A stretch of DNA of 64,000 nucleotides. It comes from a virus. The stretch is taken from positions 1 through 64,000 of the IMG/VR virus record IMGVR_UViG_3300030060_002342, one strand, 5' to 3'. A program made the translations under genes and the position numbers. The notes under the pieces are model-generated. The model was not told where the DNA came from, did no database searches, and saw only the letters and a list, made by a program, of their open reading frames with translations. Shown here one piece after another: positions 26,164 to 54,300 of the stretch (position 1 is the stretch's first letter; each line of letters opens with the position of its first letter).

Positions 26164-26421
26164 AAAAAAAGTTGTTAGATATAATGGGGTATAGCGCCGC
26201 CCCTCTCCTCCCTGCACCACACCGTAAAAGCAAAGTTAAAATTATTTACCGGGCCCCACCCTGTTTTTATATTATTATCCATGTTTGTCAGTGTTTACTC
26301 TGTATTTTCCTGCTCACCATTTAATAACTAATATATTTTTTGTTCTAAATTTTCACAATGTTACTACTATATATAATGGATAGTAATAATGTAAGTAAAT
26401 TAAATAAATAACTTAGACAAT

Positions 26422-26499
26422 ATGAGACAGTGCGGAATACTACTAACAATAAATGAAACACTAAACAAAGTATCTACTTTTATACAATGTAAATACTAA
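26422..26499 (+). CDS. Possible 25-residue leader peptide
   Basis: ATG to TAA encodes MRQCGILLTINETLNKVSTF and five more residues. Its stop lies inside the first 32-bp early element, as does the stop of the gene at 27809-28291. It could be a tiny early gene or chance. No homologue recognised. Confidence 0.25.
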   Translation: MRQCGILLTINETLNKVSTFIQCKY

Positions 26500-26513
26500 C
26501 TCAATTGGATAAT
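26482..26513 (+). promoter_or_regulatory. 32-bp early element, copy 1
   Basis: Matches the shared pattern ATACAA, then AAATAC, a variable centre, then TTGGATAAT, with no gaps relative to the other four copies. It ends 40 bp before the first early gene. This copy is the most diverged in the centre (TAACTCAAT). Candidate phage early promoter or RNA signal. Confidence 0.65.
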
Positions 26514-26553
26514 AATAATGTAACTAAATAATAATAATTAAATATAATAAACT

Positions 26554-26781
26554 ATGAGTAACTTAATCACAAAAAGATTTGTCGTAAGACAATCACTAGT
26601 CGGAAAAAATGTAACATTCGAATTCACTAACAAAAAAGGTGACAAGATAACTTACAATCATGACAAAGTATTTTCAATAATGAAAGATACACTAACTAAA
26701 CTTCCATGTTGGTTAAAGTACAAAAGTTATACTGCTACTAACAATATACCTTTAGTACTTAGAGATAAAGACTTAGTGTAA
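26554..26781 (+). CDS. Small early protein, unknown
   Basis: A 75-residue basic protein (MSNLITKRFVVRQSLVGKNV) with an early beta hairpin (TFEFTNKKGDKITYNHDKVF) and a helical end (LTKLPCWLKYKSY). It is the first clear gene of the rightward early block, 40 bp after a copy of the 32-bp element, so it should be expressed very early. Small basic first-expressed proteins of phages often bind host enzymes; here that is only a suggestion. Confidence 0.6.
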   Translation: MSNLITKRFVVRQSLVGKNVTFEFTNKKGDKITYNHDKVFSIMKDTLTKLPCWLKYKSYTATNNIPLVLRDKDLV

Positions 26782-26844
26782 CAACTAAGCTTTATTTCAA
26801 CTGCGAGTTCCACTTGTTTCTAACAGTAAATTGCGAATGAGTAA

Positions 26845-26887
26845 TGTCATTATGGTACACGAGTGTGTTCGATTCACACTATGACAA
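26845..26887 (+). ncRNA. tRNA-like minihelix (acceptor plus T-arm only)
   Basis: TGTCATT (26845-26851) pairs 6 of 7 with TATGACA (26880-26886), as in an acceptor stem. Between them is a perfect T-arm: GTGTG, loop TTCGATT, CACAC (26863-26879). Only 11 bases lie where D and anticodon arms would be. It sits in the 127-bp gap between two small genes. It could be a tRNA relic, an RNA structure that mimics tRNA, or chance. Confidence 0.4.
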
Positions 26888-26908
26888 CTAACAATTAATA
26901 TTATAACT

Positions 26909-27103
26909 ATGAATAAAATCAAATTGACGTACAATAAAGTGTACAATTATGCGAAAGGTAAACCAGTAGCAGAACTAATAGCAGAAGTAATAGCTTTCGG
27001 TTTCTTACTACCACTAGTAATAGTAGGTTTAACTACAATCATATTTGCTTTGCTAACAGGTGAAATCAATACTAACAATATAACATTTGGAATTTATGGA
27101 TAA
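26909..27103 (+). CDS. Small membrane protein
   Basis: A 64-residue protein with a basic N-terminus (MNKIKLTYNKVYNYAKGKPV) and one strong membrane segment (IAFGFLLPLVIVGLTTIIFA). It is followed, with 8-bp overlap, by a second tiny membrane protein, suggesting a co-translated pair inserted in the host inner membrane. An early superinfection or host-takeover role is possible but unproven. Confidence 0.6.
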   Translation: MNKIKLTYNKVYNYAKGKPVAELIAEVIAFGFLLPLVIVGLTTIIFALLTGEINTNNITFGIYG

Positions 27104-27188
27104 GAAGCAAATGATAATAGAAATAATGTTTGTAGCGTGTTTATTCGCGCTACTATATGTATCACTATGGATATTCTGTCCATGCTAA
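27096..27188 (+). CDS. Tiny 30-residue membrane peptide
   Basis: The ORF MDKKQMIIEIMFVACLFALL and onward, ending WIFCPC, is a single membrane helix with a charged N-terminus and two C-terminal Cys. Its start overlaps the stop of the membrane protein at 26909-27103. The overlap and composition support a real gene, though its length makes this uncertain. Confidence 0.45.
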   Translation: MDKKQMIIEIMFVACLFALLYVSLWIFCPC

Positions 27189-27199
27189 ACTATAATAAT

Positions 27200-27337
27200 A
27201 TGGCAAGAAAACACACACATGAGAAACTATGGTCGTTTAGTGACGAACACGTAGTTGATGGTATGATTTACTCACATGAATTAGACAAGTGGGTAACTGT
27301 TGAAGAATACACAGAAGTATACTATGGAACTTTATAG
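27200..27337 (+). CDS. Small early protein, unknown
   Basis: The start is set at ATG 27200 (MARKHTHEKLWSFSDEHVVD), because the longer in-frame ORF from 27137 overlaps the tiny membrane gene. It encodes 45 residues, acidic toward the end (WVTVEEYTEVYYGTL). It ends just before copy 2 of the 32-bp element. No family recognised. Confidence 0.5.
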   Translation: MARKHTHEKLWSFSDEHVVDGMIYSHELDKWVTVEEYTEVYYGTL

Positions 27338-27338
27338 T

Positions 27339-27370
27339 ATACAATATAAATACGAACTGAGTTGGATAAT
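27339..27370 (+). promoter_or_regulatory. 32-bp early element, copy 2
   Basis: ATACAATATAAATACGAA, a short centre, then AGTTGGATAAT. The first 18 bases differ from copy 3 at only one position. It starts 2 bp after a stop codon and ends 15 bp before the ATG of the next gene, which fits a promoter giving a very short leader or a processing site. Confidence 0.7.
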
Positions 27371-27385
27371 AATATAAATTAAAAT

Positions 27386-27571
27386 ATGAATAAACTTAAA
27401 TTTACAAACTATAATGCACTGGGTCAACCACAAAATGTTATACTAAAGTATGCAAATGGCGATGTCGAAGTACTCGAATTTGCTCCAAATACTAGATACT
27501 ATGACAGTTTTGACAAGAAATACAGAAGTTACCCATCATTTACTACTATAAAAACTAGAACTTATGCCTAA
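27386..27571 (+). CDS. Small early protein, unknown
   Basis: A 61-residue protein (MNKLKFTNYNALGQPQNVIL) with beta-prone, Tyr-rich sequence (NTRYYDSFDKKYRSYPSF). It is first after copy 2 of the 32-bp element and overlaps the next gene by 8 bp. It looks like a small single-domain beta protein. Function unknown. Confidence 0.55.
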   Translation: MNKLKFTNYNALGQPQNVILKYANGDVEVLEFAPNTRYYDSFDKKYRSYPSFTTIKTRTYA

Positions 27572-27803
27572 ATACTTTGATGATTTAACATTAGAACAAA
27601 TGTTCGAGTATCATGACCATACTTATATGATGGCAGATGACAATCGAGCGTACGAAAATGGCAGACGCCAACGTGATTTGATAGAAGATAAAGTCAAAGC
27701 ACAAGGCGGATGGACTAAAGAATTAGTAGATTTGTATAATAAATATGCACCAAGTGGTATGTTTCAAAAAGATTACGACTTCATGCAAAAATATAATAAA
27801 TAA
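27564..27803 (+). CDS. Small early protein, unknown
   Basis: A 79-residue soluble helical protein (MPKYFDDLTLEQMFEYHDHT), rich in Asp, Tyr and Met, with a run RQRDLIEDKVKAQGGWTKEL. It overlaps the upstream gene by 8 bp, which suggests coupling. No motif identifies a function. Confidence 0.55.
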   Translation: MPKYFDDLTLEQMFEYHDHTYMMADDNRAYENGRRQRDLIEDKVKAQGGWTKELVDLYNKYAPSGMFQKDYDFMQKYNK

Positions 27804-27808
27804 TAACT

Positions 27809-28291
27809 ATGAGAATACTAGAAAACGGCGAGTATAAATATACTTGGCAACAAGAACAGCAAATGCTTGAAGATGCTTATGCAAGACAATTGCTACTTAA
27901 ATACAATATTAAAGAAGTAACTACACAAAAACAAGCAATAAATGGTACAAGAGAATTTGAGTTTCCTGTATCTACTTATAATAATACTAATGAATTTTAT
28001 AAGAAATGGCTAAAAAAGCAGGGTAGATCACTAAAAGATACACCAAGATTAAGATTAGCTTGCTTTAAATCTGGCTATGTAAGAAAACAAAATGGTACTT
28101 ATTCACCATATCAGTTAAATAAAACTTACAAACAAGAGCAAAGAACTACTTTTTTAATAGATGGTAAGCTAGAAACTAGAAAGTATAGAGGAATAGCTAG
28201 AGCTAAAATATGGTCAGGTCTTGCTAGATTAAACTATATGTTAGAATACTATTTAAGAAATTACAAACAAAATACGAATAAAGTTGGATAA
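27809..28291 (+). CDS. Early basic protein, unknown
   Basis: A 160-residue protein, strongly basic in its second half (KTYKQEQRTTFLIDGKLETR then KYRGIARAKIWSGLARLNYM). Its last codons lie inside copy 4 of the 32-bp element, so the element and the end of this gene share sequence. Nucleic-acid binding is possible from charge. I recognise no family. Confidence 0.6.
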   Translation: MRILENGEYKYTWQQEQQMLEDAYARQLLLKYNIKEVTTQKQAINGTREFEFPVSTYNNTNEFYKKWLKKQGRSLKDTPRLRLACFKSGYVRKQNGTYSPYQLNKTYKQEQRTTFLIDGKLETRKYRGIARAKIWSGLARLNYMLEYYLRNYKQNTNKVG

Positions 28292-28292
28292 T
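28261..28292 (+). promoter_or_regulatory. 32-bp early element, copy 4
   Basis: TTACAAACAAAATACGAA, then TAAAG and TTGGATAAT. It overlaps the last ten codons of the upstream gene and ends 8 bp before the next ATG. It is nearly the same as copy 5, although the encoded reading frames differ there, so protein coding does not explain the match. Confidence 0.7.
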
Positions 28293-28300
28293 ATATTTGT

Positions 28301-28513
28301 ATGACGAAATGTAAATGTAAAAATATAATACCTCCGCAGCGCCTCGCACTAGGTTATACCTCTTGCGTCGACTGTTCAACCACTGAACCTTATGGTTGTG
28401 TTCAAATCACGTACCATAAAACCGGCAATACTATTCAAATTATGCCAAAAAGTCAGGCGAAACGTGTAAGGAAGCTTGGCGCTAGACGAGGTTATGGCAC
28501 ATGTTTAAGATAA
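28301..28513 (+). CDS. Small Cys-rich early protein
   Basis: A 70-residue basic protein starting MTKCKCKNIIPPQRLALGYT, followed by SCVDCSTTEPYGCVQ. The Cys pattern C-x-C near residue 4 and C-x-x-C near residue 25 suggests a small zinc-binding or treble-clef-like finger. The C-terminus is Arg-rich (AKRVRKLGARRGYGTCLR). Conserved small zinc-finger proteins of this kind are common in phages; their role is not known to me. Confidence 0.6.
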   Translation: MTKCKCKNIIPPQRLALGYTSCVDCSTTEPYGCVQITYHKTGNTIQIMPKSQAKRVRKLGARRGYGTCLR

Positions 28514-28517
28514 TAAT

Positions 28518-28736
28518 ATGGCACTAATAAAACAAATGAATATTGTAGCAGAAGAAATAGCTACAGATATAATAAAACAAATAGACAAACAAAGTGATTG
28601 GCAAGTCGGTCAGTTTCTACCAGAAGATGCTGAGTCCCCACTTACAAACGACACTCATAGTTATCTTATGAGACTGGTCGCTCGCCACATCGCTAATAAA
28701 CTAGACGTAACAACTAATAAATACTACGATGAGTGA
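28518..28736 (+). CDS. Small early helical protein
   Basis: A 72-residue protein (MALIKQMNIVAEEIATDIIK) with two amphipathic helices separated by a loop (WQVGQFLPEDAESPLTNDTH). Its end overlaps the next start by 8 bp. Function unknown. Confidence 0.55.
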   Translation: MALIKQMNIVAEEIATDIIKQIDKQSDWQVGQFLPEDAESPLTNDTHSYLMRLVARHIANKLDVTTNKYYDE

Positions 28737-29013
28737 TTCAGTAAAAAAATATTTTGAAGATAAAGAAGAAACTTGTAACTACAGCGGGCTAAGAAGTACA
28801 AGCAGCTACACAGCTAAGTACATATTCTTACTAGATTTTACAGACGGTAAGGTATATAGATATGACATTAGCTCGTTATGTAATGATGAAAACAAATGGA
28901 ATCCTGACTCAGAGTCTTGTGAAGCGTTTTTATACGGCGCAGGTCACAAAGTAAATGACTGTGAGTGGATGGTTACAAGTGATAAAGATATAACTCTCGG
29001 GAATACACAGTAG
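28729..29013 (+). CDS. Small acidic early protein
   Basis: A 94-residue acidic protein (MSDSVKKYFEDKEETCNYSG) with a beta-rich middle (YIFLLDFTDGKVYRYDISSL). There are four Cys but no clear metal motif. It overlaps the upstream gene and is followed 26 bp later by a tRNA-like sequence. No function recognised. Confidence 0.55.
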   Translation: MSDSVKKYFEDKEETCNYSGLRSTSSYTAKYIFLLDFTDGKVYRYDISSLCNDENKWNPDSESCEAFLYGAGHKVNDCEWMVTSDKDITLGNTQ

Positions 29014-29039
29014 GCCTTGTGATGAAAACAAGAGAGTAT

Positions 29040-29113
29040 GGGCGTGTAATGGTTGGCGGCAACCTCGGCGTAAGCAAAGGTGCCAGACGCAGGTTCGAAT
29101 CCTGCCACGTCCA
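29040..29113 (+). tRNA. tRNA or tRNA-like gene with unusual anticodon arm
   Basis: The acceptor stem GGGCGTG pairs 7/7 (one G-U) with CACGTCC. The T-arm GCAGG, TTCGAAT, CCTGC is perfect and a discriminator A follows; CCA is not encoded. By canonical numbering positions 34-36 are GCA (Cys), but the anticodon arm pairs only if an 8-base loop AAGCAAAG is allowed with stem GGCGT/GGTGCC-type pairing, and the base at position 33 is A, not T. The D-arm has GG in its loop but a weak stem. Antisense translation gives the GFEP/DSNLR-type peptides usual over tRNA genes. The amino acid cannot be assigned. Confidence 0.6.
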
Positions 29114-29115
29114 CA

Positions 29116-29147
29116 ATACAATATAAATACGACAATAGTCGGATAAT
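29116..29147 (+). promoter_or_regulatory. 32-bp early element, copy 3
   Basis: ATACAATATAAATACGAC, then AATAGTC and GGATAAT. The centre forms CGAC-AATA-GTCG, a perfect 4-bp inverted repeat. It starts 3 bp after the tRNA-like gene and ends 29 bp before the next ATG. Same spacing as the other four copies. Confidence 0.7.
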
Positions 29148-29176
29148 ATATATACAAACAATTAAATATAATAACA

Positions 29177-29419
29177 ATGGGTAAACTTAAAACACTTTAC
29201 GACTTAATGCAACCTAGTCTTAAAACAGAGTTGCAAGCTAGTGCTAGAAAGTATGACAGCGCTAAAAGACTAAAGTATAAACTCATGAGTTCTACATTAT
29301 GGCACGAGCTATCATTATCTGATATTAGTGACCTAATGTCTTACTCAGGTCTTTATACAAGCGATGTAACAGCTAAAGATATAATCTATGGCGATAAATT
29401 CTTAACAAACAAATACTAA
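29177..29419 (+). CDS. Small early protein, unknown
   Basis: An 80-residue helical protein (MGKLKTLYDLMQPSLKTELQ) with a basic middle (ARKYDSAKRLKYKLM) and an acidic Ser-rich end (LSDISDLMSYSGL). Its stop overlaps the start of the next gene by one base. Likely first of an early transcript that starts at copy 3 of the 32-bp element. Confidence 0.55.
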   Translation: MGKLKTLYDLMQPSLKTELQASARKYDSAKRLKYKLMSSTLWHELSLSDISDLMSYSGLYTSDVTAKDIIYGDKFLTNKY

Positions 29420-29874
29420 TGGCAGAATTACTAACAGATGATATTATCACCGATGCGCTAAGCAACGATGGTATCATGGAAGAACCAGATGCTAACTGGC
29501 TCCTTGAATATATCGAATCAGAATACGGCGGCAAACTAGACAATACTACCACATGGTCTGACAGTAAAGGTTTAAAAATATACAGTGAATCAACAGCTGA
29601 CAGCTATGATATATATTTCTGTACTTATGAAGATAAACCTTATGTGTCACAAGATGGTTATTACTATGAAGATCACGCGACTTGGTCAGAACAAGCTATT
29701 GAAGCACTGTGTGATAATCAAAATGTGTGGATAGAATCTCATATATGGGACGATATGGAATACGACTTTAACCACGAACTAGAACAATGGTGGCAAGATG
29801 TATACGAAGATAAGTTTAACGATAAAAAAGATGAGTTAATAGACTCAGGCGATTACTATGAAGAAAAACAATAA
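29419..29874 (+). CDS. Acidic early protein, unknown
   Basis: A 151-residue, very acidic protein (MAELLTDDIITDALSNDGIM) with Trp/Asp-rich segments such as WIESHIWDDMEYDFNHELEQ. Net negative charge and abundant aromatic residues are reminiscent of small DNA-mimic or inhibitor proteins made early by phages, but no known family is recognised. It overlaps the next gene by 17 bp. Confidence 0.6.
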   Translation: MAELLTDDIITDALSNDGIMEEPDANWLLEYIESEYGGKLDNTTTWSDSKGLKIYSESTADSYDIYFCTYEDKPYVSQDGYYYEDHATWSEQAIEALCDNQNVWIESHIWDDMEYDFNHELEQWWQDVYEDKFNDKKDELIDSGDYYEEKQ

Positions 29875-30142
29875 ACAAGAGAAACCAAACTGGTTTCACG
29901 GTGTATGGTACACAGAAGGTGATACTGTAAACAATCCTTTTACAGGTGACAGTTGCAAGCTAACTGGTCCTGAATTAAGTATGTATGACTTTATTAAAGG
30001 TGCAGAGTTTACTATATCAATGCAGTCTAACGACGTTACTGTGCTACATCCTGACACCGTTAACTTACAAAACGATATGAGAAAAGGCTTAGACTGGTTT
30101 AGAACTGCTAACCCTTCAGCTTATATGACATTACTAGATTAA
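29858..30142 (+). CDS. Small conserved marine-phage protein
   Basis: A 94-residue protein. Segments TVNNPFTGDSCKLTGPELSM, YDFIKGAEF and KGLDWFRTANPSAYMTLLD match a small protein family I recognise from marine phages, where 'NPF.G', 'ELS.YDFI' and 'GL.WF...N..AYM.LLD' are conserved. Its function is not known. It overlaps the acidic protein upstream and is followed 1 bp later by the next gene. Confidence 0.65.
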   Translation: MKKNNKQEKPNWFHGVWYTEGDTVNNPFTGDSCKLTGPELSMYDFIKGAEFTISMQSNDVTVLHPDTVNLQNDMRKGLDWFRTANPSAYMTLLD

Positions 30143-30143
30143 T

Positions 30144-30458
30144 ATGAAGACAGATAAATTTAATGAGATAGTGCATGAGTTAGATACACACGCACAAGAA
30201 ACTATGAATGCTAAAGGTCCTGAGTATACAGTGCAGGACGAAGATGTGTTAAACAATTTTAAAGCTACAGCTAAAAAGCTAGGTGTAGATCCTTTAATTG
30301 TTTGGTATGCTTACTTTGATAAGCAAGTTAGTTCAGTTGCTGCTCACGTTAGCAACCATGATCTAAATAAAGCAGAACCTATGATTAGTAGGTTTGGTGA
30401 TATAATTAACTACGCAAAGCTTGGCTATGCGTTATTTACAGAAAGAGATAAATTATGA
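30144..30458 (+). CDS. Nucleotide-modification-associated (Nmad1/DUF1599-like) protein
   Basis: A 104-residue helical protein. NAKGPEYTVQDEDVLNNFKA (residues 22-41), then KLGVDPLIVWYAYFDKQVSS and MISRFGDIINYAKLGYAL match the pattern of the DUF1599/Nmad1 family, small helical proteins often encoded beside phage nucleotide-modifying enzymes. In this window a ThyA-family gene with a cytosine-type signature is encoded 8 kb downstream. The exact biochemical role of the family is unsettled. Confidence 0.6.
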   Translation: MKTDKFNEIVHELDTHAQETMNAKGPEYTVQDEDVLNNFKATAKKLGVDPLIVWYAYFDKQVSSVAAHVSNHDLNKAEPMISRFGDIINYAKLGYALFTERDKL

Positions 30459-30943
30459 GTACAAGAAACTTAACAATGGTCGTAGACCGAAAACATGCAG
30501 AAAATCATGAACTTGGTTTTGCTGCTCCACCACAGGTGTACAGTGACAAAAGCTACGTAAATATGTATTTACATCATGATGGTTACCCACAATGGCAAGG
30601 TGTACAAATAGCAAACTGGGTTAAAGCTAATGCTAGACAAGATGGTAGTGCTATAGCTGCAAAGCTAGTACACGATATGTACTATGACAGTTGCTATTTA
30701 TATGCAGACCCAGATAATATAGACCATCATTATACTTACGTAATATGGACAGGTAAAGATGATATATGGATTAGTTGCTACGATCAGTACAGTAGTAAGA
30801 ATATATTTGTAAGTCAACCTGATAGAATTATAGAAAGATACAGTGATGATATGGACTATACTGATTTTGCTGGCGGTGAAATAAGACATGAAGATAGTAA
30901 GATAGCTTCTGCTAGAAAACTAATTGATTTATTACAAAGCTAA
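30455..30943 (+). CDS. Conserved phage protein of the 'HWDGYP' type
   Basis: A 162-residue protein starting MSTRNLTMVVDRKHAENHEL. The segment VNMYLHHDGYPQWQGVQIAN corresponds to the 'Y-H-W-D-G-Y-P' block of a small family common in phages and plasmids, whose members begin MSTRS. The rest is beta-rich with Tyr/Asp clusters. Function unknown. Its stop lies inside copy 5 of the 32-bp element. Confidence 0.65.
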   Translation: MSTRNLTMVVDRKHAENHELGFAAPPQVYSDKSYVNMYLHHDGYPQWQGVQIANWVKANARQDGSAIAAKLVHDMYYDSCYLYADPDNIDHHYTYVIWTGKDDIWISCYDQYSSKNIFVSQPDRIIERYSDDMDYTDFAGGEIRHEDSKIASARKLIDLLQS

Positions 30944-30963
30944 TACGAATAAAGATGGATAAT
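30932..30963 (+). promoter_or_regulatory. 32-bp early element, copy 5
   Basis: TTACAAAGCTAATACGAA, TAAAGA, then TGGATAAT. It overlaps the end of the upstream gene and contains the first possible ATG of the next (inside GATGGATAAT). If it is a promoter, the real start is probably the ATG at 30970. Confidence 0.7.
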
Positions 30964-33044: not shown

Positions 33045-33080
33045 GGTTATAAGATATAATTAGTAATAGGCAAATGTCAC
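33034..33080 (+). promoter_or_regulatory. Candidate promoter, 46-bp shared element (plus copy)
   Basis: TACTGACAATAGG, TATAAGATATAATTAGTAAT, then AGGCAAATGTCAC. It is the counterpart of 26163-26118 on the minus strand, with one single-base gap and few substitutions. TATAAGATATAAT resembles a -10 region. The element runs into the ATG of the next gene (33074). Confidence 0.65.
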
Positions 33081-33709
33081 AAGATAGAAACTTAAAATGG
33101 TTAAATGATAGACGCATCGTATATAGGAGAGATCCTATAAATGATGTGCCTACCATTGAAACCAAACAATATAAATACTACGAAAATGGTACACATGAAT
33201 GTTATCACTTGTTTAATAGCAAGGCTAAGATAACTACATATAAATCATTGAAGTGGCACATGCTTGTATTATATTACTTAAATATAGATGGCGTAGAAAA
33301 TGATTATATATCTTTAGAAGATGATATGCGTTCTGTATTTAACTTTATAGCAAACAAAGAAAATGGTTTTGTAACCTTCTTCATAAAACAGAAAGTATTA
33401 AATGATATGATAGAAGATGTATTTAACCAAGGTGGTGATCCACCTGCAAACAAGCTACGTAAAGTAGTATTTAAACCGTACTCTGGGTTAGACTTGAGTG
33501 GTAAATTAAAAATTGTAGGCCAACTAATAGGCAGATCTAGCATTGATAAGTTTATGATATACGATGCTATGATTGAAATAAGCGATGCTTATAGAAAAAT
33601 TACTATTAGCAGAATAGCTAAGCTTTTAAGATGCTCTGCAAGAACAATACATCGCCATATGAGTGATGATTTAAAACGAGAAAAACGAATATTAAATGAA
33701 AAGTTATAA
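33074..33709 (+). CDS. Helix-turn-helix regulator
   Basis: A 211-residue protein. The N-terminal 150 residues are unrecognised (MSQDRNLKWLNDRRIVYRRD). The C-terminus, ITISRIAKLLRCSARTIHRH followed by MSDDLKREKR, is a clear helix-turn-helix with a basic recognition helix. It overlaps the sigma-factor gene by 14 bp and starts inside the 46-bp shared element, which suggests it is made with, and may autoregulate, the sigma factor and the late promoter copy. Confidence 0.65.
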   Translation: MSQDRNLKWLNDRRIVYRRDPINDVPTIETKQYKYYENGTHECYHLFNSKAKITTYKSLKWHMLVLYYLNIDGVENDYISLEDDMRSVFNFIANKENGFVTFFIKQKVLNDMIEDVFNQGGDPPANKLRKVVFKPYSGLDLSGKLKIVGQLIGRSSIDKFMIYDAMIEISDAYRKITISRIAKLLRCSARTIHRHMSDDLKREKRILNEKL

Positions 33710-34463
33710 CATACAAAATTATATTCGGTGGAAAAAAGACATTGAATATAAAATTAGCAAGTTACCAAAAATAGTAGACAATGATTATACTGTTTGGAAC
33801 AGAGAGCAGATGATTATTGGTTTTACTCCTCTTGTAGAAAATTTATCAAGGAAGTTCTCAACTAGCCAACAAGCTAGCGGAGTAATGGATATACTAGATT
33901 TAATACAAGAAGGTAATTCAGGTTTAGTTAAAGCTGTAGATAGGTTAGACTATACTACACTTTCTGACTCTGACGATCAAGAAAAAACTTTAAAATCATT
34001 TTTATCTAAAAGAATAAAAGGCCACATACGTAGAGCTGTAGATATTAATCGTGGTGACATGAGAATACCTGAACACAAGCTAAATGAAATACGTAGGAAC
34101 TTTGGTAAAGATAAAAAGATGGTTGAAATGTTTTTTAATTCTATATTTTTAAGTATAGATGATAAACCTAAAGATGACGAAAATATGGTTTATCAAATAC
34201 CTGATAAATCAGAACCTTATAATATGAATTTACTAAATATATATTTAAAAGGTTTGATGAGAAAATACCTCAATGAAAAAGAATACGAGGTACTTAGGTT
34301 AAGCTATGGCTTGGACTGTGATAAACACCCTGCGAAGCAAATTGCTGACATATTAAAGATTGAAGGCACTAGCTCTTATGTACGTGTTTCACAACTAAAA
34401 AGGCAAGCTGTAGAAAAACTTATAGAGAATGTCGATCACTCGCAAGTGCTTGATTATCTTTAA
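33696..34463 (+). CDS. Phage sigma-70-like factor
   Basis: A 255-residue protein. Region 2-like sequence is seen at MDILDLIQEGNSGLVKAVDR then FLSKRIKGHIRRAVDI (about residues 65-115), and region 4 at LNEKEYEVLRLSYGLDCDKH then PAKQIADILKIEGTSSYVRV and SQLKRQAVEKL (about 190-240), including its helix-turn-helix. No region 1.1 is present, and region 3 is short. It would bind host core RNA polymerase and direct it to phage promoters, possibly the 32-bp or 46-bp elements found here. It is co-transcribed with the upstream HTH protein. Confidence 0.85.
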   Translation: MKSYNIQNYIRWKKDIEYKISKLPKIVDNDYTVWNREQMIIGFTPLVENLSRKFSTSQQASGVMDILDLIQEGNSGLVKAVDRLDYTTLSDSDDQEKTLKSFLSKRIKGHIRRAVDINRGDMRIPEHKLNEIRRNFGKDKKMVEMFFNSIFLSIDDKPKDDENMVYQIPDKSEPYNMNLLNIYLKGLMRKYLNEKEYEVLRLSYGLDCDKHPAKQIADILKIEGTSSYVRVSQLKRQAVEKLIENVDHSQVLDYL

Positions 34464-41817: not shown

Positions 41818-43539
41818 ATGTGGAGTAATAGATGGAAAAAAGGCGTTGATTACCCTGAGTGGGCAGACGCAGATGTATATAAGAAAACAATTACAGGTGG
41901 TTATTTATTTAACGGCGAAACACCAAGAGAAGCATATGAACGAGTAGCTGCTACGGTAGCCATGCGACTTAGAAAGCCTGAGCTTAAAGATAAATTCTTT
42001 GAGTATATATGGAACGGTTGGTTATGTTTGGCTTCACCTGTATTATCAAACCTAGGCACAGAGAAAGGATTACCGATCTCGTGCTTTGGTATTGATGTAG
42101 CTGATAGCATACAAGACATAGGTAAGAAAAACTTAGAGATGATGCTGTTAGCTAAACACGGTGGTGGTGTAGGTATAGGCATAAATCAAATCAGACCATC
42201 AGGTGCTGAGATTACAATGAACGGTACATCAGATGGTGTTGTGCCTTTCTGTAAGATATATGACTCTAGCATACTAGCCACTAATCAAGGTGCTGTACGA
42301 AGAGGTGCTGCATCTGTTAATTTAAATATAGAACACAGCGATTGGGAAGACTGGTTAGAAATAAGAGAACCTAAAGGTGATATTAATAGACAATCATTAA
42401 ACCTACATCAGTGTACTGTAATCGGTGATAAGTTTATGCGTAAACTTAGAGACGGTGATAAAGTTGCAAGACGTAAATGGGGTAAACTATTACAGAAACG
42501 TAAGGCAACTGGTGAACCTTATATAATGTACAAGGGTAATGTAAATAAAAACAACCCTGCTGCATATAAGGATAATGCTCTGAAAGTATTTATGACTAAT
42601 ATATGTTCAGAGATAGTATTGCACACAGATGAAAACCATAGTTTCGTATGTTGTTTATCTAGTTTAAACCTAGCTAAATATCATGAGTGGAAAGACTCAA
42701 ATATAATATACGATAGTATATGGTTTTTAGATGGTGTATTAGAAGAATTTATACAAAAAGCAAAAAATAGAAGGGGCTTTGAAAACGCAGTAAGATCTGC
42801 TGAAAAAGGTAGAGCACTTGGTTTAGGTGTTTTAGGTTGGCATACTTATTTACAACAAAAAGGTTACCCTTTTGAAGGATTATTAGCACAATATGAAACA
42901 AGAAGGATTTTTAGCCAAATTAAAATTGAAAGTGAAAGAGCAAGTATGGCGCTTGCGGAAGAGTACGGAGAACCTTTATGGTGTATTGGTACTGGATTTC
43001 GTAACACCCATCTTAGAGCTATTGCTCCTACTGTTAGTAATAGTAAACTATCTGGTAATGTCAGTCCTGGTATTGAGCCTTGGGCTGCTAACGTCTTTAC
43101 TGACCAGAGTGCTAAAGGTACTTTCATACGTAAAAATCCTACGCTAGTAGAAGTATTAAAAGAACATAATTTAAACACGGATAAAATATGGAACAAAATT
43201 TTGGAAGACGGTGGTTCAATACAAGGCATAAAACAATTAGAGAAAATTACGTTGGGCGATCACGACATACCAATCAAAGAAGTATTCAAAACTTTCAAGG
43301 AAATAAATCAACTAGACTTAGTTAATCAAGCTGGTATAAGACAACAGTATATAGACCAGTCTGTTAGTTTAAACTTAGCTTTTCCTGCGCAAGCAGATCC
43401 TAAGTTTATAAACAAAGTTCATTTAGAAGCTTGGAAGAAAGGTATAAAAACATTATATTATATGAGAACCGAATCAGTACTTAGAGGTGATATAGCTAGA
43501 CAAGCTACTGATGAAAATTGTTTAAGTTGTGATGGTTAG
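41818..43539 (+). CDS. nrdA: Class I ribonucleotide reductase, large (alpha) subunit
   Basis: 573 residues, shorter than E. coli NrdA (761). It starts inside the catalytic core with no N-terminal ATP cone, so dATP feedback is probably absent. Active-site features: KGLPISCFGIDV (redox Cys), MTNICSEIVLHTDE (N-x-C-x-E radical site), FVCCLSSLNL and PTVSNSKLSGNVSPG. The C-terminus ends NCLSCDG, giving the CxxC redox pair. It pairs with NrdB. Loss of the ATP cone is common in phage enzymes and would allow dNTP overproduction. Confidence 0.93.
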   Translation: MWSNRWKKGVDYPEWADADVYKKTITGGYLFNGETPREAYERVAATVAMRLRKPELKDKFFEYIWNGWLCLASPVLSNLGTEKGLPISCFGIDVADSIQDIGKKNLEMMLLAKHGGGVGIGINQIRPSGAEITMNGTSDGVVPFCKIYDSSILATNQGAVRRGAASVNLNIEHSDWEDWLEIREPKGDINRQSLNLHQCTVIGDKFMRKLRDGDKVARRKWGKLLQKRKATGEPYIMYKGNVNKNNPAAYKDNALKVFMTNICSEIVLHTDENHSFVCCLSSLNLAKYHEWKDSNIIYDSIWFLDGVLEEFIQKAKNRRGFENAVRSAEKGRALGLGVLGWHTYLQQKGYPFEGLLAQYETRRIFSQIKIESERASMALAEEYGEPLWCIGTGFRNTHLRAIAPTVSNSKLSGNVSPGIEPWAANVFTDQSAKGTFIRKNPTLVEVLKEHNLNTDKIWNKILEDGGSIQGIKQLEKITLGDHDIPIKEVFKTFKEINQLDLVNQAGIRQQYIDQSVSLNLAFPAQADPKFINKVHLEAWKKGIKTLYYMRTESVLRGDIARQATDENCLSCDG

Positions 43540-44305
43540 TATAGAACAAATATTAGATCCAATAGATGTAAAAACTTTCTTTAGTACTTATTGGAAGAAA
43601 AAACATTTAGTTATAAGAAGAAATAAGTTTAAAGACTTATATACTTTTGAGCAGTTAGATAAATATCTAAATCAATATCCTGATGTAAAATCGTTACAGA
43701 TATTAAACTATAACGATAAAGATGAAAGATGGTGTTTAGATAAACATAAAAAACTAAAACAACCCATGTTAAGCAAACAAGAGGTACATACTCTATGGAC
43801 AAAAGGTAAATCATTTGTTTTACCCTTTGCAGAGTATCAAAGCAAAAAGTTAGTTGATATATGTTTTGAGCTAGAAAAGTATTTTGATCGCGGGCAAGTA
43901 AACGTGTATGCTTCGCCTGCAGCAAACTCAAAGTCATTTCCACCTCATAGAGATGGTACAGAAAACTTTTTGTTTCATCAACACGGTAGAGTTAAATGGA
44001 CTTTGTATAAAAACTTTGATAATAAAGAAATATTAGATGAGTTTATTTTAGAACCAGGTGATTTACTTTATATACCTATAGGTATGTTTCACAAGGTAGA
44101 AACACTTGGACCAAGAATACTATTAAGTATTCATTTTACAAATAAGAAAAATCAATCATTAGAAAAGTTTTCAGTAGGTGGTAGCAACAGTAGACGTAAG
44201 TGGTATAATTGGTTACCTGAACTACCTACCGCAACAATTAAACGACCAGCTAGGCTTATGAACAAAGCAAGATGGTCTAAACCTTACTTTAATAAAAAAA
44301 TATGA
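43529..44305 (+). CDS. JmjC/cupin-type 2-oxoglutarate oxygenase
   Basis: 258 residues. The cupin core has FPPHRDGTENFLFHQHGRVK (His-x-Asp iron ligands, about residue 138) and GDLLYIPIGMFHKVETLGPR (second His, about 190), then ILLSIHFTN. This order matches the cupin_4/JmjC ribosomal-oxygenase (YcfD-like) family. It would hydroxylate a protein or another target using Fe(II) and 2-oxoglutarate. It overlaps nrdA by 11 bp and the cupin gene by 4 bp, and precedes the Kdo cassette, so modification of a sugar or cell-surface product is a second possibility. Confidence 0.65.
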   Translation: MMVSIEQILDPIDVKTFFSTYWKKKHLVIRRNKFKDLYTFEQLDKYLNQYPDVKSLQILNYNDKDERWCLDKHKKLKQPMLSKQEVHTLWTKGKSFVLPFAEYQSKKLVDICFELEKYFDRGQVNVYASPAANSKSFPPHRDGTENFLFHQHGRVKWTLYKNFDNKEILDEFILEPGDLLYIPIGMFHKVETLGPRILLSIHFTNKKNQSLEKFSVGGSNSRRKWYNWLPELPTATIKRPARLMNKARWSKPYFNKKI

Positions 44306-44646
44306 AAGCAGGAAAAATATGGGGTAAAACAGAAATGGTCCATAAAAATGGAGTATTAGAGTTTCACCGAATAGAATTTAATAAAGGATTTAAATGCTCT
44401 GAACATGAGCATAGATTTAAGTGGAACGGATTTTTTGTTGAGTCCGGCAAAATGCTTGTCAGAGTTTGGCAAGAAGATCAAGGCTTGCTAGATGAAACAA
44501 TACTTGAAGCAGGTGATTTTACTATGGTTAAACCTGGTAAGATACATCAGTTTGAAGGTATTGAAGATGGCGTAGCTTTTGAATTATATTGGGCTGAGTT
44601 TAATCACGATGATATAATTAGAAGAACAGCAGGTACTAAGATATGA
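44302..44646 (+). CDS. Small cupin-domain protein
   Basis: 114 residues forming one cupin barrel: GFKCSEHEHRFKWNGFFVES (two His and Glu for metal) and LEAGDFTMVKPGKIHQFEGI. Small cupins near sugar-nucleotide genes often isomerise or epimerise sugars or act as sensors. It overlaps the oxygenase before and KdsB after by 4 bp each, so its role is likely tied to the Kdo pathway. Substrate unknown. Confidence 0.65.
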   Translation: MKAGKIWGKTEMVHKNGVLEFHRIEFNKGFKCSEHEHRFKWNGFFVESGKMLVRVWQEDQGLLDETILEAGDFTMVKPGKIHQFEGIEDGVAFELYWAEFNHDDIIRRTAGTKI

Positions 44647-45290
44647 AAATAGCTATAGTAATACCAGCAAGACTAAATAGTACTAGAGTCAAGCACAAGA
44701 TGTTAAAGAAGTTTAATAACAAACCTTTAATAGCACTTGTGTTTGATAAAGTACGTTCATTTGGCTATGATACATATGTCGCAACAGACAGTACTAAAAT
44801 AGCAAATACAATACCAGTTAAATGGTTGTTAAAAACAAATAGAGCAAAAAATGGTACAGAGCGTATAGCTCAGTGTTATAATAAATTACAAAAGTATGAT
44901 TATATAATAAACATACAAGGTGATATGATAGATATAGATGCTTGGACTATGAAGCCTATATTTAGAGAGTGTAAGACTGGTAACTTTGATGTGTTAACAG
45001 CTTATACAGAAGGTGCTAAACCTGACGATGTAAAAGTTATACACAACTATGGTCAAGCTCTATGGTTTACAAGATCTAATATAGGTTATGGTGATAGACA
45101 TTTAGGTATATATGTTTACACACCAAGGATATTACAAGTGTATGATTTGTTTCATGATAAATATCCTATAGAAAACTTAGAACAAAACCGTATGGTTGGT
45201 TATTATAAATTTAATGTAGTTAAAACAGAATACAATGGAATCGAAATTAACACCCAAGAAGATATTGATAGCTGGCCCGTGCAGTCTTGA
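44643..45290 (+). CDS. kdsB: CMP-Kdo synthetase-like cytidylyltransferase
   Basis: 215 residues (E. coli KdsB is 248). IAIVIPARLNSTRVKHKML gives the nucleotide-binding P-A-R/S-T-R-x-x-K start, TNRAKNGTERIAQ the NGTER motif, INIQGDMIDID the metal/ribose loop (usually QGDEP), LEQNRMVGYY the LEQLR-like motif, and GIEINTQEDID the GIDT-type C-terminal motif. It would couple Kdo to CMP. The gene overlaps KdsA by 56 bp. Together they would make activated Kdo for a transferase. Confidence 0.82.
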   Translation: MKIAIVIPARLNSTRVKHKMLKKFNNKPLIALVFDKVRSFGYDTYVATDSTKIANTIPVKWLLKTNRAKNGTERIAQCYNKLQKYDYIINIQGDMIDIDAWTMKPIFRECKTGNFDVLTAYTEGAKPDDVKVIHNYGQALWFTRSNIGYGDRHLGIYVYTPRILQVYDLFHDKYPIENLEQNRMVGYYKFNVVKTEYNGIEINTQEDIDSWPVQS

Positions 45291-45999
45291 AGACTGGTCA
45301 ACGGTTAGCATGATAGCTCAGAACTGTAAATACCTAGCAGATCAAGATGGTTTTGATTATGTATTTAAAGGATCGTTTGATAAAGCTAATAGAACTTCTG
45401 TACACTCTAAACGAGGTATAGGTATAAGTGAAGCTAAGTTTATGTTTAGAACACTTAGAGAGTTTGGTATAGATAAAATAACAACTGATATACATGAACC
45501 TTGGCAAGCAAAAGAACTAGAACCATATGTAGATATAATTCAAATACCTGCTTACCTATGTAGACAAACTGATTTATTAGTTGCTGCAGGTGAAACAGGT
45601 AAAATTGTAAACATTAAAAAAGGTCAGTTTATAAGCGGTAAAAATATGGTATACGCTGTAAATAAAGTTAGAAGCACAGGTAACGAAAATGTTTGGCTAA
45701 CAGAAAGAGGTAGTATGTTTGGTATGGGTGATTTAGTTGTAGATCCTAGACAAATAGTTGATATGAAAGATTTAGGTGTACCTGTTATAATGGACTGTAC
45801 TCACTCAGTACAAAAACCTAACTCAGGTAATAAAACAGCTGGCCAACCTAAATATACGTTACCAATAGCTAAAGTAGCTAAAGCATTAGATGTTGATGGT
45901 TACTTTTTTGAAGTACATCCAAATCCTAGCGCTGCTTGGAGTGACGGATCTAATATGGTTGAGCTAGATAACTTTGGAAATATATTATTAGAATTATGA
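45235..45999 (+). CDS. kdsA: Kdo-8-phosphate synthase
   Basis: 254 residues (E. coli KdsA is 284). Motifs: LIAGPCSLEDW, YVFKGSFDKANRTS, TDIHEPWQAKE, IIQIPAYLCRQTDLLVAA, VNIKKGQF, WLTERGSMFGMGDLVVD and VIMDCTHSVQKP. The Cys in AGPC matches the metal-binding Cys of class II (metal-dependent) enzymes. It condenses arabinose-5-phosphate with phosphoenolpyruvate to Kdo-8-phosphate. The phosphatase (KdsC) and isomerase (KdsD) are not seen, so the host must supply those steps. It overlaps KdsB by 56 bp. Confidence 0.9.
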   Translation: MESKLTPKKILIAGPCSLEDWSTVSMIAQNCKYLADQDGFDYVFKGSFDKANRTSVHSKRGIGISEAKFMFRTLREFGIDKITTDIHEPWQAKELEPYVDIIQIPAYLCRQTDLLVAAGETGKIVNIKKGQFISGKNMVYAVNKVRSTGNENVWLTERGSMFGMGDLVVDPRQIVDMKDLGVPVIMDCTHSVQKPNSGNKTAGQPKYTLPIAKVAKALDVDGYFFEVHPNPSAAWSDGSNMVELDNFGNILLEL

Positions 46000-46646
46000 A
46001 AATATTTATAGGACACGATAGTAAATACCCGCAAGCAACAGATGTTTGTATAAAGTCTATTAGAGACAACGGGTTTAAAGGTGATATACAAATACTAGAT
46101 AAAAAGAAACTGATACGCGATGGAGTGTATAGCAGAGAAGATGTTGAAGGCGAATCAACAGAGTTTTCGTTTACTAGATTTTATGTACCGTTGTTAAGTG
46201 ATTACAAGGGTATATCTATGTTTTGTGATAATGATTTTTTATGGAAATGTAATCCAGAAGAGTTATTAGATTATATGGATAATCACAAACTAGGTGTGGT
46301 TATGCACGATGATTATGAGGCTACTGGCACTAAAATGGACGGTATTGTAAATAAAACCTATCCTAGAAAAAACTGGTCTAGCTTAATGGTATTTAAAAAC
46401 GAAGGATTTAAAGATATACTTGTTAAAGAATATTTAGACAATGCTTCTCCAGCAGAGCTTCATCAAATTAAATGGGCTTGTAATAAATGTGTTAGTAGTA
46501 TACCAAAGAAATATAATTGTTTAGTAGGTCATTATGATTGTACTAACGCTAAAGCTTTACATTATACTAATGGTGGACCTTGGTTTGATAAATATAAAAA
46601 TTCAGAAAAATCTTTAGAATGGTGGAAAGTATACGAGAGTTTGTAA
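45996..46646 (+). CDS. Glycosyltransferase, GT-A/GT8-like
   Basis: 216 residues. MKIFIGHDSKYPQATDVCIK is a typical GT8-like start; SFTRFYVPLLSDYKG and ISMFCDNDFLWKCNPEELLD contain the D-x-D metal motif (about residue 79). KNWSSLMVFKNEGFKD and LHYTNGGPWFDKYKN are acceptor/donor-site segments common in these enzymes. It overlaps KdsA by 4 bp and the next transferase by 28 bp. It likely adds a hexose to a glycan whose terminal Kdo (or acidic sugar) is added by the neighbouring enzyme. Acceptor unknown. Confidence 0.72.
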   Translation: MKIFIGHDSKYPQATDVCIKSIRDNGFKGDIQILDKKKLIRDGVYSREDVEGESTEFSFTRFYVPLLSDYKGISMFCDNDFLWKCNPEELLDYMDNHKLGVVMHDDYEATGTKMDGIVNKTYPRKNWSSLMVFKNEGFKDILVKEYLDNASPAELHQIKWACNKCVSSIPKKYNCLVGHYDCTNAKALHYTNGGPWFDKYKNSEKSLEWWKVYESL

Positions 46647-47428
46647 AAGGTAAGTCAGTAATATTTGTTGGCAACTCTGTAGAAATGATGAATTACAATA
46701 ATGCAAAGTTTATAGACGGCTTTGATATTGTTGTTAGATTTGGTGCAGCTATAGAAGCTAACAAAGCACATAGAAAGTTAGTAGGTAATAAGACTGATAT
46801 ATGGATCACAGGTCAGTTTAGATCACCTGCTTATACTAGACTAAAAGAAGAGTTTAATACTGGTAGATATAAAGATACTAAAATACTAGTTAATAGATGT
46901 AGAGGTAATTTTAAATTAAAGAGCTGGATATTAGAAGATCGTTTACCAAAAGGTATGAAGTACGATCAAATGTATACTGATAAAGAAATTATAGATATAA
47001 TGAAGAATAGGTTTAACAAAGATATGTTAGACCCAAATGAATGTAGACCTAGCGCTGGCTTTATAAGTTTACTATGGTTTATGGAACAAATAAAAACATA
47101 TAGTAGTATACACCTTATAGGCTTTGATTTTTTTACTAAACAAGTTGATATAAAAGTTAGGGATAAGAAAGGTAGACAGAGTAATTGTAAGCCACATAGT
47201 TGGCATCTACCTTGTTATGTATTAGATAGGTCGGCTCACGATTCTAATATGGAAAGAAATTATGTTGTGAATTTATGTAAGAAAAAGCTAGTAACTTGGT
47301 ATGTACTAACTAATTTAGATAAGCAGCAGATAAAATATACAGGTTGGATGGGTAACGCAAAGTTAGTTAAATCAAAACCTAAATTTACTAAGACATCAAA
47401 GATAGTTCCTCAATCAGAACAAGATTAG
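46619..47428 (+). CDS. GT29-like CMP-sugar (sialyl/Kdo) transferase
   Basis: 269 residues. SVIFVGNSVEMMNYNN and IDGFDIVVRFG correspond to sialylmotif L (V-G-N-S...D-x-V-I-R), RPSAGFISLLWFMEQIK with IHLIGFDFF to sialylmotif S, and SAHDSNMERNYVVNL to the C-terminal His/Glu motif. GT29 enzymes use CMP-activated acidic sugars, including CMP-Kdo in plant relatives. Encoded after KdsA/KdsB, it is the natural user of phage-made CMP-Kdo. Its stop codon overlaps the stop of the convergent gene at 47425. Confidence 0.7.
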   Translation: MVESIREFVKGKSVIFVGNSVEMMNYNNAKFIDGFDIVVRFGAAIEANKAHRKLVGNKTDIWITGQFRSPAYTRLKEEFNTGRYKDTKILVNRCRGNFKLKSWILEDRLPKGMKYDQMYTDKEIIDIMKNRFNKDMLDPNECRPSAGFISLLWFMEQIKTYSSIHLIGFDFFTKQVDIKVRDKKGRQSNCKPHSWHLPCYVLDRSAHDSNMERNYVVNLCKKKLVTWYVLTNLDKQQIKYTGWMGNAKLVKSKPKFTKTSKIVPQSEQD

Positions 47429-51360: not shown

Positions 51361-54300
51361 TTACTCGTTTTCTCTCTTTTTTAATCTTTCAATTTCGTTT
51401 CTTATAAATTCGTTTCTTTCTTTTATTGAAAGACTTTTGTAATAGTTGTATACGTTGTCAGGCATTCTTTCTTCTATAATCTTCTTCTGTGCGTTAAATG
51501 TACTTACAGTCTCTTTTCTTTTCTTAATACCCTCTTGTTTTCTTCTTTCTTTTGCTTGATCTTTTATTAAGTCATGCTCAGGGAAAGGTTCAACACCTAC
51601 ATCCCAGCTACTCCAGCCCATAGCCATAGCAACTCTTTGCCATGCTCTATGTCTTGAATCTAATGCAGCGTATGTATTTGTTAATATGTTAACAGCTCTT
51701 TGCATAGGTATATTTGTTGTACCTTCAACCATACTACCTATAACACTGTATATAGGTGAATCTAAATTAAATCCTCTTGCAGCAATAACATCTTTTTCAT
51801 ATGTCATTGTTTTATGTGATGAGTACATCTTTCTTATTTTAGAGCCTAATGGTGGAGATAAGTTAATAGCTTCAATTATAGTATACGCATGATCAGTACC
51901 CCAAGATTTATCTTCTTGCTTTTTGTAAGTCATTAATATATTTTTAACTGTAGATACAACAGCACCAGGTAAACCAGATCCTCTTAATATAGTATCTGTC
52001 ATGTTGTTTATAACTCTAACCTTTTTACCCATAATTCTATTTGCTTCTCTTTCTTCATCTTCTTCTTCATCACCGTGCATTCCTGGTAGTAAAGCAAATA
52101 AAGCATTTTGCATAGCTGTAAATATAAAGTTTTGTACAGCTCCATAATATATTATTTTACTAATATGTGTTTTAGGATCACCTCTTCTGTTAATTAAATC
52201 TCTTGCAGCTTTTTTCATTAACCTGTTATACTGGAAAGGTGTATTCTGCCAAGCAAATAAAAATCTACCCATTGGACTAGCTTGTATTGCTGATATTAAA
52301 GATGGATCAGATGATTGCTGTGTTTCTTCAGATATTTTAGAAAAGTCTTCAAATGCTCTTTTAGTAGCATCTTCTTGTGTATAACCTTCTTTAATATATT
52401 TATTTACTCTATTACGATACATTGATGCACCACCTAATGATATTGCTAAACTATCAACTATTCTTGTCGGTGTAAAACCTATTGATAATAGTTTGTTAAT
52501 AACACCTTTCACACCACCTTTTTTAGCTGCAGCTGCCATTTCAGCTTCTTGTACGTTTATTTCTAAACCACCTCTTCTTTGTTTTAATTTAGGTGAATTA
52601 AATATCATACTAAAGTCTTTCCAAAACTGAGGTTGATTAGCAAATGCTTTAGCAGCAGCTAGTGGATTGTTATCTGACCAGTTTAAAAAGTTAACTGTAG
52701 ATAAAGACTGTAATGTTGCTGATCTAAAGTTAAAGAACATAGTAGCACCAACAGAAGCATTGATCCAGTCTTGAAACTCATTCATTAATCTATTGCTACC
52801 AAAGTTTCTATTTCTACCAGACTTCATTCTAAATAAAGAATCTTCTATAGCATCTCTTATAGGTTTACCATATAAAGCTTCTATTTTATTTAAATTATCT
52901 TTATCAAATATTATGTCAGCGTTCATTTCAAACTGAGCTAAATATTGTTTTCTACCTATCTTACCTGTTATAGCTTGTAAATCTGTAAGTATAGTTTCTG
53001 CTACCCAGCTATTACCAGGCTCTACATAATTACTTGTTTTAACTATAGGTATTATGCTTTCCGCAAACAACTGTAAGTTAGGATTATTTTCCATAACTTT
53101 ATTTACAGCTGCTAAATCTCTAGCTGCTATTCCTGGTATCTTATGACCAGCTTTGTTCCATAAATATATTCTTACAGCTTGTTCATGTGTTAATACACTA
53201 CCTGGTATTTCTTTGTTTAATATTTCTTTAACGTCAGGGTATAATTTCTTTAACGCTCTATAGTCTTCTGTTATTTTTTGTTTAGCTACGTTCATAGCAT
53301 CTATACCTCTTTGATATGGTTTCATTAAGTTATCATTAAACCATTGCATATCAAGATCACCTTGCTTGCCTTTACCTAAAAAGTTATACATAAGACCCAT
53401 AAAGTCCTCTGCACTTGGTGGTAAATAAAAAGTAAACTGACCTGTTTGTGCGCCTTTTATTCTAGCAACAGCATCTGAATATCTAGCTTCCGATACAACA
53501 CCTTTATCTCTTTGTATCATATCGTTAAAGTCTTTAGACATTTTATCTACTTTACTAAACATTACTTGTTGCACATCAGACTTCACGTCTACAACATCTA
53601 AAACTGTTTTAACAGCATTAACATTACCTAGCGCATCATCAGCAAATAAAAAGTCATTATAACCTTCAGCTGCTTTTCTTACTATAAAATCTGCTTTAGC
53701 TAATGGGCTACCGTCTTCTAAACCTGTTATGTTTTCTAACGGTATGTTTAAGCCTACACTCTTTAAAAACTTTTGTATTGCAGGTGCAGCAGCCGCTGGT
53801 CTAGCAGTTAGTATAAACATGTCTTTGCTACCAAACTTCTTTTGTAACTCTAGTGCTCTTTTTAAGAAAGGTCCAGGTTTACCGTCTTTAACATCATTGA
53901 ACTCGTTAAAATCAAACTTAGCACCTTGTTCTTCTAGTATGCCAGCGTCTGTAGCAAATTTAGCTGGTGTTATTTTAGTTACTTTACCATCAGGCATTGT
54001 AACTATAATTTTAGAATCACTAGTAGCAAGTGTATCATCAAAGTCTAAAACACTAATACCTTTTCTTGTTTTTGATTTTTTCTTAGCTAACTCTAAAGCT
54101 TTATCAACTAAGTTTAACTTATCTATTATCTCTTGCTGTGATAAGTTTTTGCTATACATCACACCTGTATCTTGTAATGCTTTTAAATTATTTTTTTGTG
54201 CAGCTTCAAAAGCTTTTTTATTTTTTACTATTTCAGGACCTACTACTTTACCTGTTGAAAGTTGTTTTAGTTTTACGTTAAACTTGCCTATTGTAAATGG

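Follow-up and report, generated by a model that had tools for sequence, protein, structure and literature searches.

A repeated element in the early arm

The window analysed here, a stretch of 64,000 nucleotides (positions 1 to 64,000 of the IMG/VR virus record IMGVR_UViG_3300030060_002342), belongs to a phage whose terminase is nearest to those of MW202828 and of the Flavobacterium (elemo), Cellulophaga and Tenacibaculum/Maribacter podoviruses. Its plus-strand arm holds small genes, a ligase, a helix-turn-helix (HTH) protein, a sigma factor, Erf, an exonuclease and a primase-helicase, and the opposite arm holds the structural genes; the plus-strand genes are called early in what follows, a label that we infer from gene order. 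A preliminary description of this DNA had recorded a 32-bp element in five gapless copies within the early arm, and it is the nature of this element, and of the factor that may read it, that concerns us here.

All five copies are real (Table 1). A search of the window with a pattern of the conserved letters, TACAANNNWAATACGANNNNANNNGGATAAT, allowing at most three mismatches, returns precisely five matches, all gapless and all on the plus strand, and the same pattern finds a mean of 0.02 matches in 100 dinucleotide shuffles, in which five was never reached. No additional exact match of the element is present in the whole 68,415 bp virus record. The set was incomplete, however, in that a decayed plus-strand copy and a minus-strand copy had been missed. 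Where the window has the decayed copy and copy 1, relatives carry an intact pair 127-163 bp apart, and about a dozen relatives have minus-strand copies at the equivalent place. It had also been noted that two copies overlap gene ends in different reading frames; the overlaps amount to 31 bases (copy 3) and 12 bases (copy 5), and their codon phases indeed differ. The distance of 8 nt that separates copy 3 from its start codon is common among copies in relatives. Copy 5 stands at the head of a ligase-HTH-sigma-recombination operon, and relatives likewise carry an element ~300 bp upstream of the ligase gene.

Table 1. Copies of the element and associated features of the early arm (window coordinates).
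Feature	Position	Strand	Remarks
Minus-strand copy (ATACAGAGTAAACACTGACAAACATGGATAAT)	26305-26274	-	score 22.6; faces leftward (structural) arm
Decayed sixth copy (TCACAATGTTACTACTATATATAATGGATAGT)	26353..26384	+	129 bp 5' of copy 1
Element copy 1 (ATACAATGTAAATACTAACTCAATTGGATAAT)	26482..26513	+	40 nt 5' of ATG 26554
Element copy 2	27339..27370	+	15 nt 5' of ATG 27386
Element copy 3	28261..28292	+	overlaps end of open reading frame (ORF) 27809-28291; 8 nt 5' of ATG 28301
Element copy 4	29116..29147	+	abuts tRNA/tmRNA-like sequence; 29 nt 5' of ATG 29177
Element copy 5	30932..30963	+	overlaps end of ORF 30455-30943; 6 nt 5' of ATG 30970
Divergent control region between leftward and rightward arms	26221..26553	.	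contains minus-strand copy, degenerate plus-strand copy and copy 1
HTH protein, 211 amino acids (aa), C-terminal HTH, candidate sigma partner	33074..33709	+	weak HTH Pfam matches
Phage sigma factor, 255 aa, proposed reader of the element	33696..34463	+	PHROG 351, E=2e-18

Several small features border the copies. The tRNA/tmRNA-like sequence that ends at copy 4 (29040-29116, plus strand) has a 7-bp acceptor stem and a T arm, and its ends fit the tmRNA model RF00023 with 38.8 bits, under the cut-off of 47; it is just 77 nt long, has no mRNA-like part and draws no call from ARAGORN. In some relatives (L037, L011, L070) a tRNA-Met gene lies 3-6 bp upstream of an element. A second T-arm-like sequence (GTCAT...GTGTGTTCGATTCACAC..ATGAC), without a match in Rfam or ARAGORN, is found between early genes at ~26845-26892 (plus strand). 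An ORF of 24 codons (MRQCGILLTINETLNKVSTFIQCKY; 26421-26495, plus strand), the N-terminus of which has a similar counterpart in L027, occupies the interval between the degenerate copy and copy 1 and has its stop within the latter. Some 10-20 nt past the minus-strand element there is a GC-rich palindromic stretch (GGGGCCCGG; 26262-26248, minus strand), with likewise placed stretches in L006, L027, L037 and L040, and it is possible that this is a leader RNA of the leftward arm.

Conservation of the element and of a phage sigma factor

The preliminary description had suggested scanning the genome and its relatives with a profile of the element and looking for it before orthologous genes, and it is present there. 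Eighty relatives were fetched by way of the ligase gene, and the profile gave 431 forward against 9 reverse matches, distributed over 78 of 81 loci. The other three begin only 3-49 bp before the ligase gene, so that the region is absent from them; every relative whose sequence includes the region carries the element. The same was seen with two more sets of loci fetched by way of the sigma gene, in which the loci lacking an element were, as far as checked, those lacking the region upstream of sigma; the element is conserved in most of ~150 sigma-bearing loci, the remainder being incomplete. Among 18 largely complete relatives it is almost confined to one cluster on the early strand, and a reversed-pattern control gave 0 matches.

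The consensus in relatives reads WTACAAAC-TAAATACGA-N8-nGATAATA, in which the right block is one base longer (GATAATA) than first described. Of 404 strict matches, 403 keep the two gaps between the blocks at the same lengths, and positions 18-25 are only weakly conserved. Furthermore, the copies within a genome share letters that vary between genomes, chiefly at position 26 (0.80 versus 0.33 expected, z=40), as is expected for a reader that drifts along with its phage. The element is real and widely conserved, and it very probably constitutes a promoter family that a large group of Bacteroidota phages, mostly marine and uncultured, employs for the early genes.

The most conserved block is GATAAT (positions 27-32), which is nearly invariant in 394 distinct sites and has the make-up of a -10 hexamer, being TATAAT-like with A at -11 and T at -7. 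The strongest evidence for a sigma70-type promoter with GATAAT as its -10 comes from the two most diverged carriers of the sigma gene, both of which came from bacterial genome bins. In the first, L215, where the sigma factor is ~50% identical, an unguided repeat search with a chance expectation of 0.0 brought up eight copies of TTGCAGAtctATAACGA-N8-A-TATAAT in the identical 32-bp frame, all on the sigma strand and, save for the first member of a pair, 18-30 nt upstream of ORFs. The second, L214 (sigma 52% identical), has three copies in the identical frame with GATAA. One lineage thus has TATAAT at positions 27-32 where others have GATAAT. With this hexamer as the -10, transcription is predicted to start near element position 39. 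At ~96% of sites the start codon lies at or beyond that position, and the commonest distances of start codons from the element end are 6 and 8 nt. In the same numbering block 1 is centred at -35, the gap is 19-20 bp, as compared with the ~17 bp looked for in a sigma70-type promoter, and the position linked to sigma region 4.2 (see below) falls at ~-23. Two further arguments were tried and rejected. If block 2 were taken as the canonical -35 box, transcription would start near position 47, but approximately one-third of sites have start codons upstream of that point; and a purine at position 39 does not prove the +1, as the signal is largely gone in sites without a nearby ATG in the A-rich leader.

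As judged by profile and predicted model, the product of 33696-34463 is a sigma70-family factor. Its Pfam sigma70 region 2 and region 4 matches fall just under the cut-off, its profile matches in the Protein Data Bank (PDB) are to FliA and RpoD, with FliA 1rp3 the best, and the predicted model resembles sigmaA structures. The gene was found in 74 of the 81 loci, the remaining loci being incomplete, and is present wherever the region is complete. Conversely, neither the sigma factor (by tblastn and profile) nor the element was found in elemo (50 of 62 kb searched), in phi38:1 and phi13:2 (50 of 72 kb each) or in MW202828 (whole), and the HTH protein is absent from these sigma-less relatives as well. 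The phage records searched yielded no culturable relative with the sigma gene.

The sigma factor also varies together with the element. When 2055 columns of early proteins were scanned without prior selection, the strongest co-variation with element position 16 was that of sigma residues S227 and Q233. The underlying ranking by mutual information ignores phylogeny; in a phylogeny-aware likelihood-ratio test (LRT) against position 16 the two columns scored 23.2 (Q233) and 22.8 (D/N227), and the 220 control columns from ligase, Erf and the HTH protein reached at most 14.8, on a background that is somewhat inflated (median LRT ~5 for sigma, 3-4 for controls). Residues 227 and 233 are the first and seventh of a predicted recognition helix, 227-245, and the assignment of position 16 to them is only suggestive.

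A putative sigma-promoter system and its alternatives

We consider it probable that each copy is a sigma70-type promoter for host core RNA polymerase equipped with the phage's own sigma factor. Such a holoenzyme would recognise each copy with GATAAT as its -10 hexamer, and the 17-bp upstream half (WTACAAAC-TAAATACGA, ~-38 to -22) would serve as the specificity region, probably touched by sigma region 4.2 and perhaps also by a partner, for which the HTH protein is a candidate. As copy 5 heads the operon that contains the sigma gene, the set would form a self-amplifying loop, which would turn on the small early genes, the recombination and replication genes and, via the minus-strand copy, the leftward arm as well. 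With respect to the partner, the two upstream blocks are alike, forming a direct repeat TACAA-N6-TACGA with an 11-bp period, and this likeness suggests two contacts. In 126 of 202 loci the HTH gene overlaps the start of the sigma gene by 13 bp. The two genes are equally conserved, and the predicted model of the HTH protein shows three C-terminal helices; this model has no PDB match. As a reader of position 16 the HTH protein was ruled out, its columns scoring no higher than controls (maximum LRT 14.4).

Several observations weigh against this proposal. In approximately 14 of the 394 sites the predicted transcription start lies beyond the start codon, which follows GATAAT at a distance of only 0-5 nt, and few sigma70 promoters are spaced so strictly. 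Scores equal or almost equal to those of residues 227 and 233 are also reached by sigma columns beyond region 4.2 (Q167, K157, M122), and the co-variation as such backs the sigma factor as reader more than it does specific residues. Position 16, at ~-23 in block 2, is ~10 bp, or one helical turn, from the usual site of region 4.2, and a reading of the G at -12 by sigma R112 is ruled out, R112 being unchanged in L215 where -12 is T. Last, the sigma gene lies within the copy-5 operon and no host-type promoter stands out; if the sigma factor is required for its own operon, the first sigma must originate elsewhere, whether by way of a weak host promoter, by readthrough or with the virion. The host-type pattern TTG-N17-22-TAHHTTTG gave 4 sense against 37 antisense matches in early regions totalling 547 kb, an antisense excess that may be a matter of base composition.

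It is conceivable, if unlikely, that early transcription is altogether independent of the host primary sigma, the phage sigma and its translationally coupled HTH partner being delivered with the virion or otherwise made first. Region 4.2 would then read a box one helical turn nearer the -10 than in known holoenzymes, and a second factor would sit on the outer box, an arrangement that would account for the absolutely fixed spacing.

The proposed pairing of a phage sigma with its own promoters can be set beside several known systems. The group-3 promoter consensus of sigma28 (FliA) is TAAAGTTT-N11-GCCGATAA (PMC2859248). Both share GATAA in the -10 and G at -12, and the best PDB profile match of the phage sigma is to FliA itself. 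The phage element differs in having no GCC before GATAA, its position 26 being any base though largely fixed per genome; in an upstream half of 17 bp that consists of two blocks of other sequence; in its invariant spacing; and in a -10 that turns into TATAAT in L215. Phage sigma factors that redirect the host core polymerase to phage-specific promoters are known, as with gp28 and gp33-34 of SPO1 and gp55 of T4, and these serve middle or late genes after early promoters read by the host sigma, whereas here the promoters are found at the head of the early cluster and of the sigma-encoding operon. T4 middle promoters combine a MotA box with a -10, and lambda CII promoters have direct repeats around the -35; the element resembles these in joining a -10 to an upstream block or direct repeat at ~-38 to -22, but this phage encodes a sigma factor of its own that co-varies with the upstream block, and no MotA or CII homologue was identified.

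A related alternative, which we judge unlikely, is that the host polymerase reads the element with a host sigma, aided by a phage activator (e.g. the HTH protein) on the upstream half, and that the phage sigma acts elsewhere. The direct repeat of 11-bp period has the layout typical of activator sites, the HTH and sigma genes are equally conserved, and rigid spacing suits an activator that touches polymerase. However, the HTH columns are unremarkable against position 16, where sigma columns stand out, and the -10 block differs from the host TAnnTTTG/TAHHTTTG box; although the host machinery is presumably shared, neither of the boxes of Bacteroidota primary sigma promoters, TTTG and TAnnTTTG (PMC6847099, PMC9723704), occurs in the element. 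The preliminary description was correct in finding no obvious fit to the -7 box. A Bacteroidota sigmaA promoter (TAnnTTTG at -7, TTG/TTTG at -33) is ruled out on this ground, and so is a sigma54 promoter (GG at -24, GC at -12; TGGCAC-N5-TTGC), both of whose features are missing from the consensus.

Of the two kinds of reader that had been put forward, a virion polymerase or the phage sigma factor, the evidence favours the latter through conservation, joint absence, the TATAAT copies of L215 and co-variation, and we regard it as quite improbable that the copies are promoters for an RNA polymerase encoded by the phage or carried in its virion (T7-like, N4-like or crAss-type). AATACGA does recall the start of the T7 promoter, the spacing is fixed as in promoters of single-polypeptide polymerases, initiation at GATAATA would account for the start codons right behind it, and a crAss-type muzzle protein (see below) indicates distant kinship to phages with virion polymerases. 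Nevertheless, the contiguous conservation of T7 promoters from -17 to +1 is missing, the centre of the element being variable; no excess of paired bases, and thus no N4-type hairpin, is seen in that centre over 369 distinct sites; and the -10 block becomes TATAAT in L215. Nor was a polymerase gene found: there was no T7-type match (PF00940, E<=1), in a search to which control genomes likewise gave none, motif scans revealed no convincing DxDGD or Rx3K..YG, and a giant protein of 2721 aa has no PDB match, either alone or as a profile of its conserved C-terminal part.

That the element acts in RNA, as a processing site (which the preliminary description had allowed for) or as a translation-initiation signal in the 5' leader, is very improbable. 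Its position 6-40 nt upstream of start codons and the placement of copy 4 directly behind a tRNA/tmRNA-like sequence would fit such a role, but no base-pair co-variation and no Rfam match were found on the element, copies on both strands flank the divergent control region, and early regions hold no excess of GATAATA apart from the element (308 found versus 346 expected). Chance or copied coding sequence has a negligible likelihood, for although the region is AT-rich and two copies overlap ORF ends, only 0.02 matches are expected in shuffles, the overlaps are in different reading phases and conservation in relatives already refutes it.

Our search of the literature, which had little coverage of subscription journals and preprints, returned no description of this element. 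A phage sigma with its own promoters is a known kind of system. To judge from the literature searched, novelty lies in the strict three-block layout, in the early position, in the operon that contains its own sigma gene and in the scale of the joint divergence. For a large, mostly marine group of Bacteroidota phages, for which we found no described promoters, the analysis provides a promoter code together with its probable reader, and the joint divergence of sigma and element across many genomes constitutes a natural data set on sigma specificity. Standard E. coli promoters do not work in Bacteroidota, and the pairs are candidate orthogonal sigma-promoter pairs for these bacteria. A testable question is also raised, namely how the phage starts up if its early genes appear to carry only promoters for its own sigma.

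Other features of the phage and its relatives

The early-arm proteins scanned include a primase-helicase, a ligase, Erf and an exonuclease; none of them was recognised as a replicative DNA polymerase. The contigs L209-L213 of these phages occur in metagenome-assembled genomes labelled Aliivibrio, Ilumatobacteraceae and Halieaceae, and are probably mis-binned phage contigs, because relatives infect Bacteroidota. The 2721-aa protein (window 51361-59526, minus strand) was found in 37 of the 37 relatives searched; its C-terminal 900 residues are conserved and include a HAD-like DFDDT motif, and its N-terminal part is highly variable. Both ends of a late protein of 1403 aa (L094 4190-8401, minus strand; record positions 64190-68401) match domains of the crAss muzzle (PF25731, PF25729), which points to distant kinship to Crassvirales. 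Finally, a plus-strand cassette at window 43529-47428 encodes JmjC/cupin, cupin, cytidylyltransferase, DAHP-synthetase-family and sialyltransferase-like (GT29) proteins, and looks like a phage-carried pathway for surface-sugar synthesis of the 3-deoxy-D-manno-octulosonic acid (KDO) or sialic-acid type.

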